From Fusobacterium sp. (lineage in GTDB: Bacteria > Fusobacteriota > Fusobacteriia > Fusobacteriales > Fusobacteriaceae), in assembly GCF_029258315.1 (NCBI RefSeq), contig NZ_JARHZE010000027.1:1-32001 (forward strand): a stretch of DNA of 32,001 bases, given 5' to 3'. Every line of letters begins with the position of its first letter. The stretch's first letter is position 1. The translations under genes were made by a program, and so were the position numbers. The notes under the pieces were generated by a model, which had not been told where the DNA came from, did no database searches, and saw only the letters and a list, made by a program, of their open reading frames with translations. Below are positions 14,850 to 31,912 of this stretch, one piece after another.

Positions 14850-15452
14850 ATGAAAATCTTAGTTGATAATAAAGAATTTACATTAAATACTACTTTTAAT
14901 AGTTTCGGTGAACTTATTAATGAGATAATAAAAAAATTAAAAGCTGAAGAAAAAATTATCGAAACTATTATAGTTGATGGGGTTGTTCTTAATACAACTT
15001 CCATTGTAAATGTTTCAAAAATAACTTTACTTGAGATATTTACAAAAAGTCATAAAAATATTCTTTTTCACTCTTTATTCTTATTAGAAGAATATATTCA
15101 AGAATATTTTAAAACATTAAAGATTTTAGAAGATTATGAGTTAGATCCTCTAACTTACGATATGAAAGTCAATGAGGTTGTAAGTTTTCTCAACTGGACT
15201 TTAAATCTTTTATATAGTCTTAGAGAAAATACCTACATTGAATTTTTTTATGTTGGATATAATGAATTTTTAGAAGATTTTAAAAACAGTTATGACAATC
15301 TTATGAAAGCTCTTGAAAGCGGTGATTATGAAGCTGCTTTTGATATTCTTGAGTTTGAAATTTCAGATATGCTTTCTGCTCTTGGAGAAAATATTGAAAA
15401 TTACAAAAAGGATATTCTGATTGATGAAAACTCATCAACACATGCAATTTAA
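14850..15452 (+). CDS. Hypothetical protein, last gene of the rluD-comF run
   Basis: A 200-residue protein I do not recognise. It is acidic, has no signal peptide, no membrane helix and one or no Cys. The first ~65 residues alternate beta-strand-like stretches (KILVDNKEFTLN, TIIVDGVVLN, VSKITLLEIFT), which resembles a small ubiquitin-like/beta-grasp pattern. The rest is predicted to be helical with many aromatic residues (FLLEEYIQEYFKTL, LNLLYSL, IEFFYVGYNEFLEDF). AGGAG lies about 9 bases upstream. It follows comF by 10 bases, so it belongs to the same operon. No enzyme motif is visible; a structural or partner role is only a guess. Confidence 0.8.
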   Translation: MKILVDNKEFTLNTTFNSFGELINEIIKKLKAEEKIIETIIVDGVVLNTTSIVNVSKITLLEIFTKSHKNILFHSLFLLEEYIQEYFKTLKILEDYELDPLTYDMKVNEVVSFLNWTLNLLYSLRENTYIEFFYVGYNEFLEDFKNSYDNLMKALESGDYEAAFDILEFEISDMLSALGENIENYKKDILIDENSSTHAI

Positions 15453-17968: not shown

Positions 17969-18008
17969 AAAAAAATCCTTACTGTAAATAATTATAGCAA
18001 GGATTTTT
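17969..18008 (-). terminator. Intrinsic terminator of the Hsp70-like gene
   Basis: Minus strand: AAAAATCCTTGCTATAA paired with TTACAGTAAGGATTTTT around a short loop, with one wobble and a T run after the stem. It begins 6 bases after the stop codon. Confidence 0.88.
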
Positions 18009-18013
18009 GTTCT

Positions 18014-19912
18014 CTAAAAAATTAATATCTCTACATCTTGAGCTAATTTTTCTAACTTATTATTTAATTCCTTTGAAATATTTTCAGATAATTCAAAGGT
18101 AAAATTATTTTCAGATTTTTCTAACTCTTCCATTATTGATATACTTAATTTTTCTTTTGTTTTTTCAGAAAGGAATATATCTTTTCTTACAAGTTTTCTT
18201 AAAAGTATTGGAATAGATTTTTTTATAAAAAGATGTTTTGTCCTATTAAATCCAATAAGTCCAGCTATTATTCCTATTATAGCTCCTCCTAAAAATCCAA
18301 GTGGACCAGTGGCTATTAATGCTGTTCCACTACCACCACAAAGCATTCCCATTAAAATAGCAATTATTAAAGAAATTATTCCATTTATTATATTCTCTCC
18401 TTGAAGATTACTTATGGAAAAATTAATATTATGTAAATCCGTTCTCATATTTATAGATAAAAGGTTCATTTCCTCTCTTGGAATCATATATCTGTCACAA
18501 ATCTCATCAATAGGAATTTGTAATTTATCACATAAACTCACTGACCAATCGATAATGGATTTTTCTAAAAGAGGTCTTATTTTTTCAGGAACTAGTATAT
18601 CTTTTATTCTTTCTAAAAGAATACTATTCATCTCTTCTATTGTATCAATCTTTCCTTTTTTCCAAAGAACAATATTTGGTAAAATTCCCTCAGTTATCAC
18701 ATATTCTGTTAACTTTTCTACAAGTGGATAGATCAACTCTTTTATTTGGTTATCAACATTTTCTTTAACAACTCCACTTTTAATAAAATTTTTAACTTCT
18801 CCTCTAAACTCTCTAAGTCTTTCATCTATAATTCCAGAATAAGCTAAACCTTTTCCAATAGAAAATTCTGGTTCTTCAGAATTAACTATTATTGCATTTG
18901 GAAATGAAAACTTACACTGCTCCTTAAAGAACTTCATTCTTGAAGCTCCACCTGTTAATATTAAAAGTTTTGGTGGATTATCTTTAGTAACTTTTGCTGC
19001 CTCATATAGTGAATATTGTATTCCCTCTACAAAAGATTTACCATTCAATTCTTTTATTGGTTTATTTATTATATTTCTTATAATCTCTTCACTAGCTTTT
19101 ATAGAAAGATTTTGTACCCCATCATAATATAAAGAAACTATTTCCTCACAAAATGAATTTTTATATAATTCCTCATTTGTAAAATATTTTTCCTTAACCT
19201 TTCTCGAAACAAGTTGAGCATAACAACGCCAACCATAACTTTCAGTAAATATCTCATTTATTTTTTCAGAAGAATCACTATTTTTTATAGCCTCCTGCAA
19301 TAAATACTCATCTATTAAACCACTACCTAGGTTATTGTTTCCAAAAACCCCAATCCCTGTTTCCTTACCATTTACAATATATGCAAAATCTAAAGTTGAT
19401 GATCCAATATCTACAACTAAAACACTCTCTTTCAAAAGTTCTGGATTTACCCTTATATTTTTAGCCTCTCTAGCATATAAAAAAGCAGCTCTTGATTCTG
19501 ATATAACCCTAACATTTGGTATATTAGCTTTTACTAATAAATTTTTATATCTTTCTCTCATTGCTAAAGTCCAACCTGCTGGACAACCAACTGTTATTTG
19601 AATATCTTCTCCTATATCAAGATCTTTTAATTTTCTAACAACTCCCTTTACAAAAAGAATTATATCTTTTTCAGCAATTTCTGAATTTTCAGAGAAACGA
19701 CTTTTAAATCTAACTCTTAAAGAATTTTTATCCCCTAGAGATATAGCCTGTTCTCCTATTAAAATATTATCCTCTCCATCAACAGCCACTGCTGAAATAA
19801 AACTTCTTTTATCATCAAGGGATAAAATTATTGGCTCTATATCTTTACTAGCAGATGAGATTTGGGCAACTGTACTTTCTCCATCTCCTAAATCAAAACC
19901 TATATATTTCAT
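18014..19912 (-). CDS. Divergent Hsp70-like (actin-fold) ATPase with a glycine-rich membrane segment
   Basis: A 632-residue protein. Residues 1-~370 are an Hsp70/actin-type ATPase: phosphate-1 loop GFDLGDGESTVA (DnaK has GIDLGTTNS), TVGCPAGW, phosphate-2 VVDIGSSTLDFA and adenosine motif LILTGGASRM. ~370-505 is helical and unlike the DnaK substrate-binding domain. 508-555 is a Gly-rich hydrophobic hairpin-like stretch (GMLCGGSGTALIATGPLGFL then GAIIGIIAGLIGF), followed by a basic-to-acidic amphipathic tail. It is therefore probably membrane-associated. It follows a two-TM gene by 12 bases with AGGAGGGAG between, so they form an operon. Substrate and role are unknown; it is not a second DnaK, because the C-terminal half is unrelated. 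Anything beyond that would be guesswork. Confidence 0.85.
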   Translation of the reverse strand: MKYIGFDLGDGESTVAQISSASKDIEPIILSLDDKRSFISAVAVDGEDNILIGEQAISLGDKNSLRVRFKSRFSENSEIAEKDIILFVKGVVRKLKDLDIGEDIQITVGCPAGWTLAMRERYKNLLVKANIPNVRVISESRAAFLYAREAKNIRVNPELLKESVLVVDIGSSTLDFAYIVNGKETGIGVFGNNNLGSGLIDEYLLQEAIKNSDSSEKINEIFTESYGWRCYAQLVSRKVKEKYFTNEELYKNSFCEEIVSLYYDGVQNLSIKASEEIIRNIINKPIKELNGKSFVEGIQYSLYEAAKVTKDNPPKLLILTGGASRMKFFKEQCKFSFPNAIIVNSEEPEFSIGKGLAYSGIIDERLREFRGEVKNFIKSGVVKENVDNQIKELIYPLVEKLTEYVITEGILPNIVLWKKGKIDTIEEMNSILLERIKDILVPEKIRPLLEKSIIDWSVSLCDKLQIPIDEICDRYMIPREEMNLLSINMRTDLHNINFSISNLQGENIINGIISLIIAILMGMLCGGSGTALIATGPLGFLGGAIIGIIAGLIGFNRTKHLFIKKSIPILLRKLVRKDIFLSEKTKEKLSISIMEELEKSENNFTFELSENISKELNNKLEKLAQDVEILIF

Positions 19913-19924
19913 TTCTCCCTCCTT

Positions 19925-20782
19925 TTAATTTATTTTCTTTATTGCTACCCCTCTTACAAATACTTTATTACTATCTTTTTCTATAAAAGCTGATTTTATA
20001 GTCATTGTTGAATTTTTTGAAGGTAGTATATCAAAATATTTTTCTGTTTCCTTTGAATACTCTATCTTTTCTATATTATTTGACAAAAGAATATTCTCTA
20101 TCTCTTTATTTACAATAGGTACAATTACTTTATTATCTGTTTTTTCAATCTCATCAAATTTTTGAAAAACTTCAAGAATATTTTTATCAAGATTGCTCTC
20201 TTTTTTATTTTCCAATCCATTTAATATGGTTAACTCTTCTATATATCTATCTAGAGCCTCCATATTTCTATCCATAAATTCCATTATTTTATCTATATTT
20301 AAATTTATCTCAGTTTTTTGTACTGTTTCTACTATCTTCGAATCTTCCCTATATTTTTTTAAAATAAGCAACAATATTAAAATTTCGCTGACAAGTCCAG
20401 CTATCCCTACACCTATCATAATATAATAATTTAATTTTATTCCTTGAGAAAAACTATACCAGAGTGAATAAAATAAAACACAGTGCATTAAAGTTAAAAA
20501 AACTATATTTCCTTTTTGCTTATACACCTTAATATTTTCTTCTGACCATATTCTAACACTTCCTAGGGTATTATAAATATTAAAATTTTCTTTTAAAATT
20601 GTGAAAAGAATTCCTATCTGTTGACGAAGTTTAGAATTTTTTTCCTCTGACATAACATTATGCTGTATATTTTCTATTTTTTGTACCAAAATATTTTTTA
20701 TATCTTGAACTGTTTTATTTTCTGCTGATATTTCTTTTTTTGTTTCCTCTTTTAGCTCTCTCCATTTATCTACTGCCTTCAT
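19925..20782 (-). CDS. Two-TM membrane protein, partner of the Hsp70-like ATPase
   Basis: A 285-residue protein I do not recognise. N-terminal ~90 residues are charged and coiled-coil-like (KWRELKEETKKEIS, QKIENIQHNVMSEEK). Two membrane helices follow at ~94-112 (IVFLTLMHCVLFYSLWYSF) and ~118-141, with a short loop, putting both ends on the same, probably cytoplasmic, side. Then comes another helical segment (INLNIDKIMEFMDRNMEALDRYIEEL), and a C-terminal ~60-residue strand-rich part ending KVFVRGVAIKK. That layout (long helices, then small beta domain) resembles GrpE, the nucleotide exchange factor of Hsp70, but this is weak. GGAGGTG precedes the ATG. It lies upstream of the Hsp70-like gene, and I see no clear promoter in the 49 bases after the smpB terminator. 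Confidence 0.78.
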   Translation of the reverse strand: MKAVDKWRELKEETKKEISAENKTVQDIKNILVQKIENIQHNVMSEEKNSKLRQQIGILFTILKENFNIYNTLGSVRIWSEENIKVYKQKGNIVFLTLMHCVLFYSLWYSFSQGIKLNYYIMIGVGIAGLVSEILILLLILKKYREDSKIVETVQKTEINLNIDKIMEFMDRNMEALDRYIEELTILNGLENKKESNLDKNILEVFQKFDEIEKTDNKVIVPIVNKEIENILLSNNIEKIEYSKETEKYFDILPSKNSTMTIKSAFIEKDSNKVFVRGVAIKKIN

Positions 20783-20831: not shown

Positions 20832-20861
20832 AAAAAAGGAAATCCTTAAATAAGGATTTCC
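20832..20861 (-). terminator. Intrinsic terminator of smpB
   Basis: GGAAATCCTTA and TAAGGATTTCC form a perfect stem with a very short loop, followed on the minus strand by TTTTTT. It begins 6 bases after smpB. Confidence 0.92.
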
Positions 20862-20867
20862 CTGATA

Positions 20868-24048: not shown

Positions 24049-24076
24049 AAAAAAAGGGTGTATTCAAACACACCCT
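24049..24076 (-). terminator. Terminator-like hairpin between the GerMN gene and yqeK
   Basis: Minus strand: AGGGTGT-GTTTGAAT-ACACCCT followed by seven T. It overlaps the GerMN gene stop and ends 13 bases before the yqeK ATG, leaving no room for a separate promoter after it. Confidence 0.85.
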
Positions 24077-24809
24077 ATATATCTTTTCTAAATTTAAAAT
24101 CTCTTTTTAGATTAGCATATTTTACTTTGTCCATATCTGCACCATTAATTAAAATCTTAACTGTATCTAGATTAGTATCTATATTTGTCATAGTATTTAC
24201 AATAGAATAGATTATAAGTAGTTCATCTGTTGGACTTTTTACCCTATCAAAAAGTTTTTCAGGAAGATCTAAATAAATTATATTATTTACTATATAGTAA
24301 TATACCTCTGTTTTCTCATTGATATTTGGTATCTTCTCAAGAGTTTTTAATTCGTTTAAAGTTTCATCTAAAGTTCTTCTTATTTTTGAACTTTTACTTA
24401 TATTTTTCTCAACCTCAATCTCTTTATTTGCTATTTTGTTTTTTTCTGGATAATATATGTATAACTTCTCTTTTTCATTCTGTTGTTTTAAACTTTCTCT
24501 TTCAAAAACTACTTTTGGTGTATTGTCTTTTGAACTAAAATATAAATACCCTGAAAAAATAGTTATAATCCATAAAATTGACATTATTTTTATGGAGCTA
24601 TTTTTACTATTAAAGAATCCTTCTTTAAAGTTTATTAGTTTTATTTTTAGTTCTTTTAACACCTCACCCATTCCACTTTTTGATGAAGTTTTTTTCCTTT
24701 TTTTATTAAAACTAAATTCTTCTTCTTCTAAATTTCCTTTTATATTTTTTTTATTTTTCTCTTCAAACTCTTTATTTTCTTTCTCATGATTTTTTTTTAA
24801 ATTTATCAT
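24075..24809 (-). CDS. Membrane-anchored GerMN-domain protein
   Basis: A 244-residue protein. The first ~70 residues are very charged (EKENKEFEEKNKKNIK, FSFNKKRKKTSSK) and cytoplasmic. One membrane helix at ~74-91 (IKIMSILWIITIFSGYLYF) anchors it, and the remaining ~150 residues face out. They hold a GerMN-like domain: KLYIYYPEKN, RRTLDETLNEL, YYIVNNIIYLDLPE and LIIYSIVNTMTN...VKILING. GerMN is known from spore germination GerM and from envelope proteins of non-sporulating bacteria; its ligand is unclear. It follows an amidase gene by 9 bases, so a role in cell-wall remodelling is a reasonable inference. AGGAGA precedes the ATG. Confidence 0.82.
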   Translation of the reverse strand: MINLKKNHEKENKEFEEKNKKNIKGNLEEEEFSFNKKRKKTSSKSGMGEVLKELKIKLINFKEGFFNSKNSSIKIMSILWIITIFSGYLYFSSKDNTPKVVFERESLKQQNEKEKLYIYYPEKNKIANKEIEVEKNISKSSKIRRTLDETLNELKTLEKIPNINEKTEVYYYIVNNIIYLDLPEKLFDRVKSPTDELLIIYSIVNTMTNIDTNLDTVKILINGADMDKVKYANLKRDFKFRKDI

Positions 24810-26268: not shown

Positions 26269-27426
26269 TTATTTAAATAAATCCTTCAATCTATCTAAAA
26301 AACTTTTATTCATTTTATAATTTTTATCTTTTAAACTTTCATCAAATTTTTTCAATAATTCTATTTGAGTATCATTTAAATTAGTAGGAACTTCAATAAC
26401 TATTTTTACAAGTTGATCTCCAGCTCCATAAGCTCTAGGGTTATTTATTCCCTCTCCTCTCAATTTAAATACTTTTCCATTCTGAGTTCCTGCTGGTATT
26501 TTTATAGCTTTTTTACCATTTAATGTAGGGATCTCTACTTCTCCACCAAGAGCAGCTTTTGCATAAGTTATAGGTACTTCACAAATTATATTTTCTCCAT
26601 CTCTCACAAAGAAGTCGTGATCTTTAACGTGGAAAAAGATATATAAATCTCCATCTTCTCCACCTTCAGCACTTGCATCTCCCATTCCATGGATTCTTAA
26701 TCTTTGACCATCATGAATTCCTACTGGTATTTTTATTTTTTTGCTGATTGTTTCTCTTTCTAAACCTGTTCCACCACATTTTTTACATTTTGTTTCAGGA
26801 ATTTTTCCTTTTCCTTTACATTTATCACATTCCTCTACACTTTTAAAGTTTCCAAGCATAGTTCTTTGGATTTTTTCTATTCTACCAGATCCACCACATT
26901 TGTCACAAGTTTTCATCTTGCTTCCTGGTTCAGCACCTGTACCATTACAAGTTTTACACTTTCCTCTTCTAGTATATTTTATTTCTTTTTCTCCACCTTT
27001 AGCTACTTCTTCTAGAGTGATTGTCACATCAACCCTTAAGTCAGCACCTGGTTCTGGTCCTCTTTGTTGAGCTCCACCAAATCCTCCAAAGCCACCATTT
27101 CCACCAAAGAATGATGAGAAAATATCTTCAAATCCACTTCCAGAGAATCCTTCAAATCCTCCACCATATCCGCCACCTGCTCCATTTTCAAAAGCAGCAT
27201 GACCAAATCTATCGTATTTTGATCTTTTATCTGCGTCAGATAAAACTTGATAAGCTTCGTTTATCTCTTTAAACTTATCTTCAGCTTCTTTCTTTTCGCT
27301 CTCACTTGCATTACTAAATCTATCAGGGTGGTATTTCATAGCTAATTTTCTATAAGCTTTTTTTATTTCTGCTTCAGAAGCTGTTTTTTCTACACCTAAA
27401 AGATCATAATAATCTTTCTTTGCCAT
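26269..27426 (-). CDS. dnaJ: Chaperone DnaJ (Hsp40)
   Basis: A 385-residue full-length type I J protein. Order: J domain (~1-70) with YHPDRF, a glycine/phenylalanine-rich region ([20 protein letters not shown]), four CxxCxGxG repeats forming two zinc sites (first [10 protein letters not shown]), and the C-terminal client-binding domain and dimer tail. It delivers unfolded proteins to DnaK and triggers its ATPase. The ORF track start is an upstream TTG four codons earlier inside the GGAGG binding site; the ATG at [12 protein letters not shown] is the standard start. It follows an epimerase-like gene by 20 bases. Confidence 0.98.
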
Positions 27427-27446
27427 TTTTTCCTCCAAAATTTATC

Positions 27447-28304
27447 TTAAAGTATTTTGATCTCTATACTTTTTTGATACATCTCACCTTTTTCTAATTT
27501 TTTAATTCCCTCTTTTTCTGTAAGTTGTCCATTAGAAGTTACTAGATCTCCTAATCCATCCCATGGCTCAAGACAAACAAATCCAGATTTTGGAACACTC
27601 CAAAATGCCATGTATTCAAAACCGTTATAATCAAACTCTACTATTCTATCACTTTTATCAGATTTTAGCCAGACTTTTTTAGAATTTGTATTTTTAAATA
27701 TAATTGCATCTTCTTTAAAAGTTTCATCTGTAAATCTTAAAATATTTCCTTCAAATATATCTCTTATCTTATCAGTAACACCTATACTTTCAGCTGTCAA
27801 AGATTTTCCAATCTCATCTTTTTCAAACTCGATATAGTTTTCTCCTGGTTGACCAAAAACATTAAATGCAGGATGAGCTCCTAATGAAAAATACATTTTA
27901 CCATCAGTTAAATTTTCAACTCTATACTCCATTTTTAAAGTATTCTCATCTAAAATATATTTTAAAAATAATTTAAAATCAAATGGATATTTTTTCTTTG
28001 TTTCTTCGTTTGATTCAAATAAAAACTCTAAGTAATTTTCTCCTCTATCACTTAATACAAACTCATTATCTCTAGCGAATCCGTGTTTAGTTTCTATTCT
28101 ATATTCTTTTTCATCATAAAAATATTTTTCATTTTTTATTCCACCTACAAATGGGAATAGTATTGGTGATGATTTTGCCCAAAAGTTTTTATCTTTCTGC
28201 CAAATATATTCAAAATTATCCTTCTTAGAAGTAAACTTTTCTAACTCTGCTCCCTTACTTTCTACTTGTATTATAAAATTTGAATTTTCTAATCTATATT
28301 TCAT
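27447..28304 (-). CDS. Aldose 1-epimerase family protein (galactose mutarotase-like, LacX type)
   Basis: A 285-residue protein of the mutarotase superfamily, in the LacX-like branch: GAELEKFTSKKDNFEYIW, SPILFPFVGG, HGFARDNEF (catalytic His region), MYFSLGAHPAFNV (second His) and CLEPWDG (Glu). Such enzymes interconvert alpha and beta anomers of a sugar in the cytosol; the sugar cannot be read from the sequence. It sits between dnaK and dnaJ, an unusual place, and a hairpin terminator precedes it by about 20 bases. GGGGAG precedes the ATG. No link to protein folding is known to me, so a heat-shock connection may be only positional. Confidence 0.87.
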   Translation of the reverse strand: MKYRLENSNFIIQVESKGAELEKFTSKKDNFEYIWQKDKNFWAKSSPILFPFVGGIKNEKYFYDEKEYRIETKHGFARDNEFVLSDRGENYLEFLFESNEETKKKYPFDFKLFLKYILDENTLKMEYRVENLTDGKMYFSLGAHPAFNVFGQPGENYIEFEKDEIGKSLTAESIGVTDKIRDIFEGNILRFTDETFKEDAIIFKNTNSKKVWLKSDKSDRIVEFDYNGFEYMAFWSVPKSGFVCLEPWDGLGDLVTSNGQLTEKEGIKKLEKGEMYQKSIEIKIL

Positions 28305-28324
28305 ATGAACTCCCCTGTATTAAT

Positions 28325-28357
28325 CTAAAAATAGGGAATAGAGTAAGCTCTATTCCC
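28325..28357 (-). terminator. Terminator-like hairpin between dnaK and the epimerase gene
   Basis: GGGAATAGAG-TAAG-CTCTATTCCC gives a perfect 10-pair stem; minus strand it is followed by TATTTTTAG. The run of T is interrupted, so it may be a partial terminator. Only about 20 bases remain before the next ATG. Confidence 0.8.
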
Positions 28358-28377
28358 AGAAAATAACAATCTAATTA

Positions 28378-30210
<1,833 letters not shown>

Positions 30211-30261
30211 TTAATATTCCTAAAAATATTTCTATTCTAAAATTTTTGATTACTGATTTAA

Positions 30262-30831
30262 TTATTTCTTACATACTTTAACCATTGAAGGTCTTATTAC
30301 TTTTCCTTTTAATTTATATCCTTTTTGGAACTCAGCTATTATATAGTTATCTTCAAAATCTTCACTAGCTTCAACCATAACAGCCATATGTTCTTCTGGA
30401 TTAAATTCTTTTCCTTCTGTATCTATACTTTCTAACCCTTCAGCTTTGAATATCTCTCTAAATTGATTTAATGTAAGTTCAACTCCTTTTACTAAACCAT
30501 CAAAATCTTTTGTTTGTTTTGATGTTTCAGCAGCTCTTGTTAAATTATCAATTCCATCTAAAAGTTTAGTAATAATTTTTTCAGAAGCAAATTTTCTAAG
30601 CTCATCCATCTCTTTTTCTTTTCTCTTTGTAAAGTTTTGGAAGTCAGCTTGCTTTCTCATATATGATTGTTTCCAATCCTCTACTTCAGCTTTTAATTTT
30701 CCAATTTCTTCTTGGATAGTTTCTAATTCATTTAACTCTTGATTATTTTCTTTTTCACAATTTTCTTGAGTTTCTTCACAGTTAACTTCCTGCTCCATCT
30801 CTTCTATATCTTTTAATTTATCTTCTGACAT
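30262..30831 (-). CDS. grpE: Nucleotide exchange factor GrpE
   Basis: A 189-residue protein. An acidic N-terminus with an EETQENCEKENNQ segment precedes a long coiled coil (~30-100, with SYMRKQADFQNFTKRKEKEM), and the beta domain contains GLESIDTEGKEFNPEEHMAV and FQKGYKLKGKVIRPSMVKV, the GrpE signature. It releases ADP from DnaK and acts as a dimer. The ORF track starts at a GTG one codon earlier; AGGAGA spacing favours the ATG. It sits 12 bases downstream of hrcA and upstream of dnaK, the usual order. Confidence 0.98.
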   Translation of the reverse strand: MSEDKLKDIEEMEQEVNCEETQENCEKENNQELNELETIQEEIGKLKAEVEDWKQSYMRKQADFQNFTKRKEKEMDELRKFASEKIITKLLDGIDNLTRAAETSKQTKDFDGLVKGVELTLNQFREIFKAEGLESIDTEGKEFNPEEHMAVMVEASEDFEDNYIIAEFQKGYKLKGKVIRPSMVKVCKK

Positions 30832-30843
30832 CACTATCTCCTT

Positions 30844-31866
30844 TTATTTTTCTTTATTTCCAATCAATTTTTCTTTATTTATAGTTTTTTCTAGTTCCTT
30901 ACTTATATAATCTATAAGTCCCATAGTTTTTGAATAAGGCATTCTCTTAGGTCCGATTACTCCGACAACCCCTTTTGAATCTCCTTTTTTATATACTGAA
31001 TAAACAAAACTATAATCTTCAAGTCCTTTTACTGGAAGGTCATCGCCTAGTATTACATTTACTTTACCTTCAACATATTCATTTGATTTTACAATCTCCT
31101 CAAATATATTTCTGACCTCTTGTTTTTCATTAAACATTTCCATAATATCTAAAACTTCATTTACATTTTTATTTTTGAAAATGCTTGGAGAATTACTTAA
31201 ATATAATTTTCCTTCTATATCTTTATATATCTCTTTTTCAATATCATTATAGGCTTCAAAATTTTCTTTTATTAAATCTACAATCTCATAACTTTTTATT
31301 TTTTGAGTTTTAATCTTATTATTAATTTTCTCTGATAACACTTGTAGTTTTTCTTTCGTTATTCCTGTTTGAAGCTTTATTTTTTTAGTTGTGACATTTA
31401 AATCTTCAGTAACTATTATTGCTAATATTAAATAATCATCAATATGAACCAATTCAACTTTTTTTATATTTTCTTTTTTATGATTTGGTTCTATTACAAC
31501 TGAAGCATAAGATGTAAGCTTTGAAAGAATTGATGAGGTTTCTTTTAAAATATTATCAAGAGCATTCATCTTTTGATCATATTCATTATTTATTCTTTTC
31601 TTTTCTTCCATCGATAATTTTTCAATCTTTAAAAGTTCATTAAGATAATATTTATAACCTAAATCTGTTGGAATTCTTCCAGAAGATGAATGGGTTTTTT
31701 CTATAAATCCTGCATCTTCCAAATCAGACATTACATTTCTGATTGTTGCTGAAGATAATTCAATATTATATTTTTTTACTAAAGTTCTTGAGCCTATTGT
31801 TTCTCCACAACTAAGATAGAAATCAATAATGGCATTTAGAACTAATTTTTCTCTTTCACTTAGCAT
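30844..31866 (-). CDS. hrcA: Heat-inducible transcription repressor HrcA
   Basis: A 340-residue repressor. The N-terminal winged helix (~1-75) reads LSEREKLVLNAIIDFYLSCG, GSRTLVKKY and LSSATIRNVMSDLEDAGFI, followed by HSSSGRIPTDLGYKYYL; the rest is the GAF-like and dimerisation part ending VIGPKRMPYSKTMGLIDYIS. It binds the CIRCE element upstream of this operon and is kept active by the GroEL chaperonin in known systems. The ORF track adds 10 residues that run into CIRCE; GGAAGGTGA 4 bases before the chosen ATG and the family N-terminus support the shorter form. First gene of hrcA-grpE-dnaK. Confidence 0.98.
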   Translation of the reverse strand: MLSEREKLVLNAIIDFYLSCGETIGSRTLVKKYNIELSSATIRNVMSDLEDAGFIEKTHSSSGRIPTDLGYKYYLNELLKIEKLSMEEKKRINNEYDQKMNALDNILKETSSILSKLTSYASVVIEPNHKKENIKKVELVHIDDYLILAIIVTEDLNVTTKKIKLQTGITKEKLQVLSEKINNKIKTQKIKSYEIVDLIKENFEAYNDIEKEIYKDIEGKLYLSNSPSIFKNKNVNEVLDIMEMFNEKQEVRNIFEEIVKSNEYVEGKVNVILGDDLPVKGLEDYSFVYSVYKKGDSKGVVGVIGPKRMPYSKTMGLIDYISKELEKTINKEKLIGNKEK

Positions 31867-31885
31867 CAAATCACCTTCCTGAATA

Positions 31886-31912
31886 TTAGCACTCATTACT
31901 AAAGAGTGCTAA
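31886..31912. promoter_or_regulatory. CIRCE operator (HrcA-binding site)
   Basis: TTAGCACTC-N9-GAGTGCTAA, a perfect match to the CIRCE consensus, located between the predicted transcription start and the hrcA ribosome binding site. HrcA binding here represses the operon until heat shock. It also implies autoregulation of hrcA. Confidence 0.98.

Follow-up and report, generated by a model that had tools for sequence, protein, structure and literature searches.

A gene pair in the window (the whole 32,001-nucleotide stretch of Fusobacterium sp. DNA that was analysed) encodes an ATPase with an Hsp70-type nucleotide-binding domain (NBD) and a conserved, uncharged, glycine-rich hairpin, together with an unannotated protein carrying two predicted membrane helices. 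With moderate confidence, the pair can be read as an Hsp70-type ATPase tethered to the inner membrane, where it would act on the cytoplasmic side with a dedicated cofactor, a membrane protein of two helices. The domain make-up of both proteins, their conservation and the pairing of their genes can be followed directly in the sequences compared. The partner gene just upstream, whose two-helix membrane product looks like an obligate partner, was missed by the first-pass annotation, which had drawn attention to the hairpin. No description or name for the pair was found in the open-access literature searched, and it may be described elsewhere. The ATPase gene and its parts are:

18014..19912, minus strand: Hsp70-NBD ATPase with hairpin (P0001), 632 aa; an open reading frame (ORF) with an RBS-like GGAGG
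18818..19912, minus strand: Hsp70-type NBD, residues 1-365, from profile and Foldseek matches and catalytic residues
18443..18817, minus strand: helical region, residues 366-490, occupying the position that the linker and substrate-binding domain (SBD) have in Hsp70, from AlphaFold2 and the end of the DnaK HMM match
18245..18394, minus strand: uncharged Gly-rich hairpin, residues 507-556 (putative TM1 507-525, GGSG turn 526-529, putative TM2 537-554)
18179..18247, minus strand: basic stretch that follows the hairpin (residues 556-578; R572 invariant)
18017..18166, minus strand: helical C-terminal tail of moderate amphipathicity (residues 583-632), from AlphaFold2 and hydrophobic moment

The ATPase half is Hsp70-type and probably active, as judged from its profile and fold matches and from its invariant catalytic residues. 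When a profile of the ATPase was built with 77 aligned homologues, its best solved relatives were the NBDs of DnaK and BiP (E about 1e-15 over positions 3-363; 1.5e-15 for the DnaK match); PPR matches in the same search were taken as noise. The AlphaFold2 model has a mean pLDDT of 87.5, its top 50 Foldseek matches are all Hsp70, and PF00012 matches 20 of 28 diverse family members (best E 2.5e-12), while family searches with the single sequence gave weak ParM, MreB and DnaK matches. Residues D7, K70, E139, D168 and T173 are invariant across 78 aligned sequences (the window protein and 77 full-length homologues, from the best 80 of 269 loci), and in an HMM alignment the last four fall on catalytic positions of the window's own DnaK; the DnaK catalytic set used for comparison (Asp8, Lys70, Glu171, Asp194, Thr199) is kept in the ATPase.

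The ATPase HMM aligns with this same DnaK over residues 2-362, including the Hsp70-type second lobe, and ends there. No interdomain linker, beta-sandwich SBD or helical lid of the Hsp70 type is present: the profile matches and the HMM match all end at 362-363, and the hairpin module stands in place of the linker and SBD. Beyond residue 348 the AlphaFold2 model consists of helices apart from isolated short bridges, those of the helical region (348-378, 381-418, 425-439 and 442-474) mostly having pLDDT above 85. The earlier description of an Hsp70-like protein thus holds for the NBD fold but not for the linker and SBD: to judge by its domains, the ATPase is neither a classical Hsp70 nor an Hsp70 with a hairpin added.

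The hairpin itself had been placed at 18248-18391 on the minus strand, and codon arithmetic agrees exactly with its assignment to residues 508-555. The nearly uncharged run claimed for it is in fact slightly longer, residues 507-556 having no D, E, K, R or H over 50 positions; the second-longest uncharged run in the ATPase is 16, and a run of 50 was reached in 1 of 20,000 whole-protein shuffles; the observation is thus exact, and chance does not explain it. Both sequence features pointed out at the time, the GGSGT (residues 526-530) and the small-xxx-small spacing (GAIIGIIAGLIG, 543-554), are present. Conservation of the glycine pattern, for which an alignment of homologues had been proposed as a check, is high across the 78 sequences: G536 is 100% identical, G527 95%, G526, G529 and G539 91%, G543 88% and G554 87%, with P537 at 87% and a small residue at 547 in 100%. 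The GGxG turn and GPxG motif are about 90% kept, and the 4-residue spacing of small residues at 539, 543 and 547 is a family feature. Mean column identity in the hairpin core (522-547) is 0.61, compared with 0.56 in the NBD and 0.44 in the helical region. At two positions inside the hairpin acidic residues occur in the family: E at the residue-535 position in 26 sequences, and E or D at 514 in 31.

A hydrophobic segment is found at the hairpin position in all 78 aligned full-length sequences (19-residue Kyte-Doolittle maximum at least 1.82), in a sample that may favour members keeping the hairpin, since its 80 loci were the top-ranking ones among 269 and the full-length protein was used to confirm them. 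Another stretch as hydrophobic occurs in only 3 of the 78, and the controls, the window's DnaK and 14 other Hsp70 ORFs, reach at most 1.47 on the same 19-residue window. The look of a double-pass or re-entrant hydrophobic hairpin is therefore conserved, on an ATPase of Hsp70 fold, and no aligned homologue lacks the segment. AlphaFold2 gives two helices here (506-525 and 537-553) with a poorly predicted turn between them, at pLDDT 46-77 for the block; burial in a soluble fold, the other ground on which the hairpin might have been doubted, finds no support in these low-confidence helices, the model having no confident buried core, though exposure is not thereby proven. By a crude biological hydrophobicity sum, the first helix (-1.0) favours insertion and the Gly-rich second (about +1.4 to +1.6) is borderline, so that a re-entrant or interfacial hairpin is possible beside a double-pass one.

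The basic patch expected after the hairpin is indeed there (RTKHLFIKKSIPILLRKLVRK, residues 557-577), and over residues 555-580 the family averages 5.3 K/R to 2.6 D/E, an excess of the kind expected if both ends of the hairpin are cytoplasmic. Conserved hydrophobic segments of membrane-crossing length with positive-inside flanks point to an integral membrane protein. The tail proposed beyond the patch is present too: it is helical (583-598 and 604-631 in the AlphaFold2 model), with amphipathicity no more than moderate (hydrophobic moment 0.48-0.56). Many homologues in an Oscillospiraceae clade (L057-L083) are about 670-707 aa long, with a longer C-terminal tail.

The partner gene and its parts are:

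19925..20782, minus strand: partner (P0002), an unannotated, predicted two-helix membrane protein of 285 aa, 12 bp before the ATPase gene
20441..20506, minus strand: predicted membrane helix 1, residues 93-114, from AlphaFold2 and hydropathy
20348..20428, minus strand: predicted membrane helix 2, residues 119-145, then KKYR, from AlphaFold2 and hydropathy
19934..20074, minus strand: conserved C-terminal beta domain, residues 237-283 (F250, P254, A265, G278)

In its AlphaFold2 model an N-terminal helical part is followed by the two membrane helices, further helices and the C-terminal beta domain, and K/R are in excess on either flank of the membrane helices. Foldseek found no match to the partner's fold in the PDB; weak single matches to unrelated Pfam and NCBIfam models were taken as noise. 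The pairing is close and recurs in several bacterial phyla: among the best 80 of 269 loci, the full HMM finds a partner homologue in 74, lying at -10 to +100 bp from the ATPase gene in 67 and overlapping it by 4 bp in 21, and one of the six loci without a partner is on a contig that ends 161 bases upstream. An HMM built from clostridial partners alone recovers the window partner (2.2e-25) and also the cyanobacterial ones, down to a Calothrix plasmid protein (1.2e-12), E-values which, like all those from the local family HMM runs, refer to small sequence sets. Genome-wide co-occurrence was counted in the window's genus only, where ATPase and partner are present together in the same four of seven genomes (species). 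The two genes are 0.8-1.5 kb apart at three loci (L052, L082, L085), with a methyltransferase gene inserted between them in L052 and an ankyrin-repeat gene in L082.

Two features bound the pair in the window:

20836..20863, minus strand: terminator-like hairpin after smpB, between the pair and the upstream genes, from a consensus scan
17971..18008, no strand assigned: 10-bp perfect inverted repeat AAAAATCCTT...AAGGATTTTT just past the ATPase gene, a possible terminator, read from the sequence

With smpB set apart by the one and the ATPase gene followed by the other, ATPase and partner probably form their own transcription unit. FtsH is a quality-control protease for membrane proteins; its gene (peptidase M41) lies directly upstream of the partner at two clostridial loci (L022:3071-5083 and L026:3021-5084), possibly in one operon, and the BLAST cluster containing it spans 7 loci. 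The remaining neighbours across loci are mixed housekeeping genes, sugar-metabolism genes for example, and give no functional clue; neither a client nor a J-domain partner of the ATPase was found, and no J-domain gene is adjacent.

The window also contains a dnaK-type chaperone operon (26269-31896, minus strand; DnaK at 28378-30198, GrpE at 30268-30756), in which ORFs of sizes fitting HrcA and DnaJ flank DnaK and GrpE. Its proximity to the hairpin ATPase is probably coincidental, since GrpE and the ATPase are on separate contigs in two congeners (G030 and G032). Three other ORFs of the window (14850-15452, 24075-24809 and 27447-28304; 200, 244 and 285 aa) have no NCBIfam match at 1e-5, the last of them sitting between dnaK and the dnaJ-sized ORF. 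Short (about 550 aa) Hsp70 genes in another family of the order have additional, divergent GrpE copies beside them (G068:C1:858121-858627 and G068:C1:1115635-1116147), distinct from the main GrpE.

Orthologues of the ATPase in three congeners are 75-81% identical. The wider family was opened by a full-length cyanobacterial homologue on a Calothrix plasmid (31%), the one match of a single-sequence plasmid search; single-sequence searches of genome contigs and viral contigs gave zero matches, and a search of phages gave none. An alignment search of GTDB species genomes then yielded the 269 loci, and the best 80 retained are mostly from Clostridia MAGs, followed by cyanobacteria, Beggiatoa/Thiomargarita (Thiotrichaceae) and a Phycisphaerales bacterium; one copy is on a conjugative plasmid. 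Among cultured cyanobacteria, Chlorogloeopsis fritschii PCC 6912 and Fischerella muscicola PCC 7414 have the pair. Within the phylum searched, the gene is present in only 4 genomes, all of one genus, whose sequences fall inside Bacillota in the tree. This placement, with the restriction to a single genus, suggests transfer from Clostridia, a reading kept tentative by the long joining branches. Two candidates from other genera of the family (L005 and L006, 31% matches) are ordinary DnaK, and a further group of 549-556 aa (L007-L018) are short Hsp70s without the hairpin; neither belongs to the ATPase family. The pair on a contig titled as a Klebsiella pneumoniae MAG (L089, CAMBFS010000076.1) has diverged, its long branch lying apart from the copies of other gammaproteobacteria; the contig is probably misbinned or mislabelled.

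In the mechanism proposed here, the glycine-zipper hairpin would enter the inner membrane from the cytoplasm and turn back, so that ATPase domain, basic stretch and tail all stay cytoplasmic; likewise, the partner would be a hairpin membrane protein with both ends cytoplasmic, and would most likely hold or regulate the ATPase. Membrane insertion and this topology, ATP hydrolysis, a physical complex of the two proteins and their joint function are what we infer from the features described. Opening and closing of the NBD, driven by ATP, would most likely be transmitted by the helical region, either to the hairpin or to a membrane-bound client, the pair serving as a device for membrane-protein assembly or quality control. 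The usual picture of Hsp70 is of a soluble chaperone with two domains, its motor acting through the peptide-binding one. A bolder suggestion, offered only tentatively and with low confidence, is that the pair represents a membrane machine of a separate class: an Hsp70 motor free of an SBD would drive a glycine-zipper hairpin with a dedicated two-helix partner, and its ATP cycling would act directly on the membrane or the proteins in it. Keeping the motor but giving up the peptide-binding domain for a conserved membrane hairpin, nearly always alongside a second membrane protein, a widespread family in bacteria would show another use of the Hsp70 cycle, and an unnamed two-gene module of gut Clostridia, Fusobacteria-like bacteria and cyanobacteria would gain a testable function.

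The main rival, although unlikely, is a membrane-bound actin-like scaffold, polymerising in an ATP-dependent manner like relatives of MreB, FtsA and ParM, the hairpin serving as its anchor and the two-helix protein as its membrane receptor. The missing peptide-binding domain and the helical tail would suit such a scaffold, as would MreB as the best PDB match by single sequence (E 8e-4), matches of MreB_Mbl to 14 and of ParM_N to 6 of the 28 family members, and a match to the phage partition family phrog_691 (1e-10); deeper profiles and Foldseek, however, clearly favour Hsp70, down to its second lobe, and no ParR- or centromere-like neighbour was seen in the window or the loci examined. Retaining the Hsp70 assignment, the partner might instead be a GrpE-related, membrane-anchored nucleotide exchange factor, making the pair a fully membrane-bound Hsp70/GrpE machine. 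Its pairing with an Hsp70 NBD, its long N-terminal helices and its C-terminal beta domain had suggested GrpE by eye, and hhalign sets its C-terminal part on the corresponding region of GrpE, but at a probability of 3.8%, which is not significant; with no GrpE among the family or Foldseek matches listed for the partner, the identification is not supported and the relationship seems quite improbable.

A more hostile role, as a pore-forming or conflict-system component, is very unlikely: here the glycine-zipper hairpin would oligomerise on a signal and permeabilise the membrane, the Hsp70-type domain being an ATP-dependent gate. The Gly-rich hairpin, the patchy distribution (4 of 7 congeners, one conjugative-plasmid copy) and the transfer suggested by the tree placement inside Bacillota are all compatible with this, and Kaur et al. 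(2020, PMC7159879) report bacterial Hsp70-only proteins without a peptide-binding domain from GAP1-N2 GTPase conflict systems. Against it, the PADLOC defence models give no match to the ATPase and one insignificant match to the partner, the neighbours are housekeeping genes and not nucleases, GTPases or DGR genes, and there is no phage or viral-contig match. Least probable of all, and hardly to be expected, is a hairpin outside the membrane, buried as a helical hairpin in a soluble oligomer; the borderline second helix and the low AlphaFold2 confidence across the hairpin would allow it, while 50 uncharged residues with a conserved K/R excess flanking them, a hairpin missing from no aligned homologue and a second two-helix hydrophobic hairpin in the partner speak for the membrane.

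Taken as a membrane-tethered Hsp70-type ATPase, the protein can be set beside several known systems. FtsA, MreB and ParM belong to the same ATPase superfamily, and the first two are located on the inner membrane face; the hairpin ATPase is closer to Hsp70 in sequence and fold, and would be anchored by a two-helix hairpin instead of a short amphipathic helix. The partner recalls GrpE in being encoded beside an Hsp70-type ATPase and in having helices followed by a beta domain, but differs in its two predicted membrane helices and has no significant sequence or fold match. The cyanobacterial DnaK3 has the substrate-binding domain of a complete Hsp70 and is not known to carry such a hairpin. It has been reported to bind thylakoid membranes (PMC7281324), and is thus like the ATPase in being an Hsp70-family protein at a bacterial membrane. 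The GAP1-N2 Hsp70-only proteins share with the ATPase an Hsp70 domain without a peptide-binding domain; they accompany GTPases, FNIII proteins, full HSP70 and GrpE, whereas the sole constant neighbour of the ATPase is the two-helix protein, and the portion of their description consulted does not mention a hairpin (PMC7159879). With DnaK, HscA and HscC (Mayer, 2021, PMC8215388) the ATPase shares the NBD fold and catalytic residues over residues 1-363; where these have a conserved linker, SBD-beta and SBD-alpha, it has a helical region and then the hairpin, with the basic stretch and helical tail behind it.
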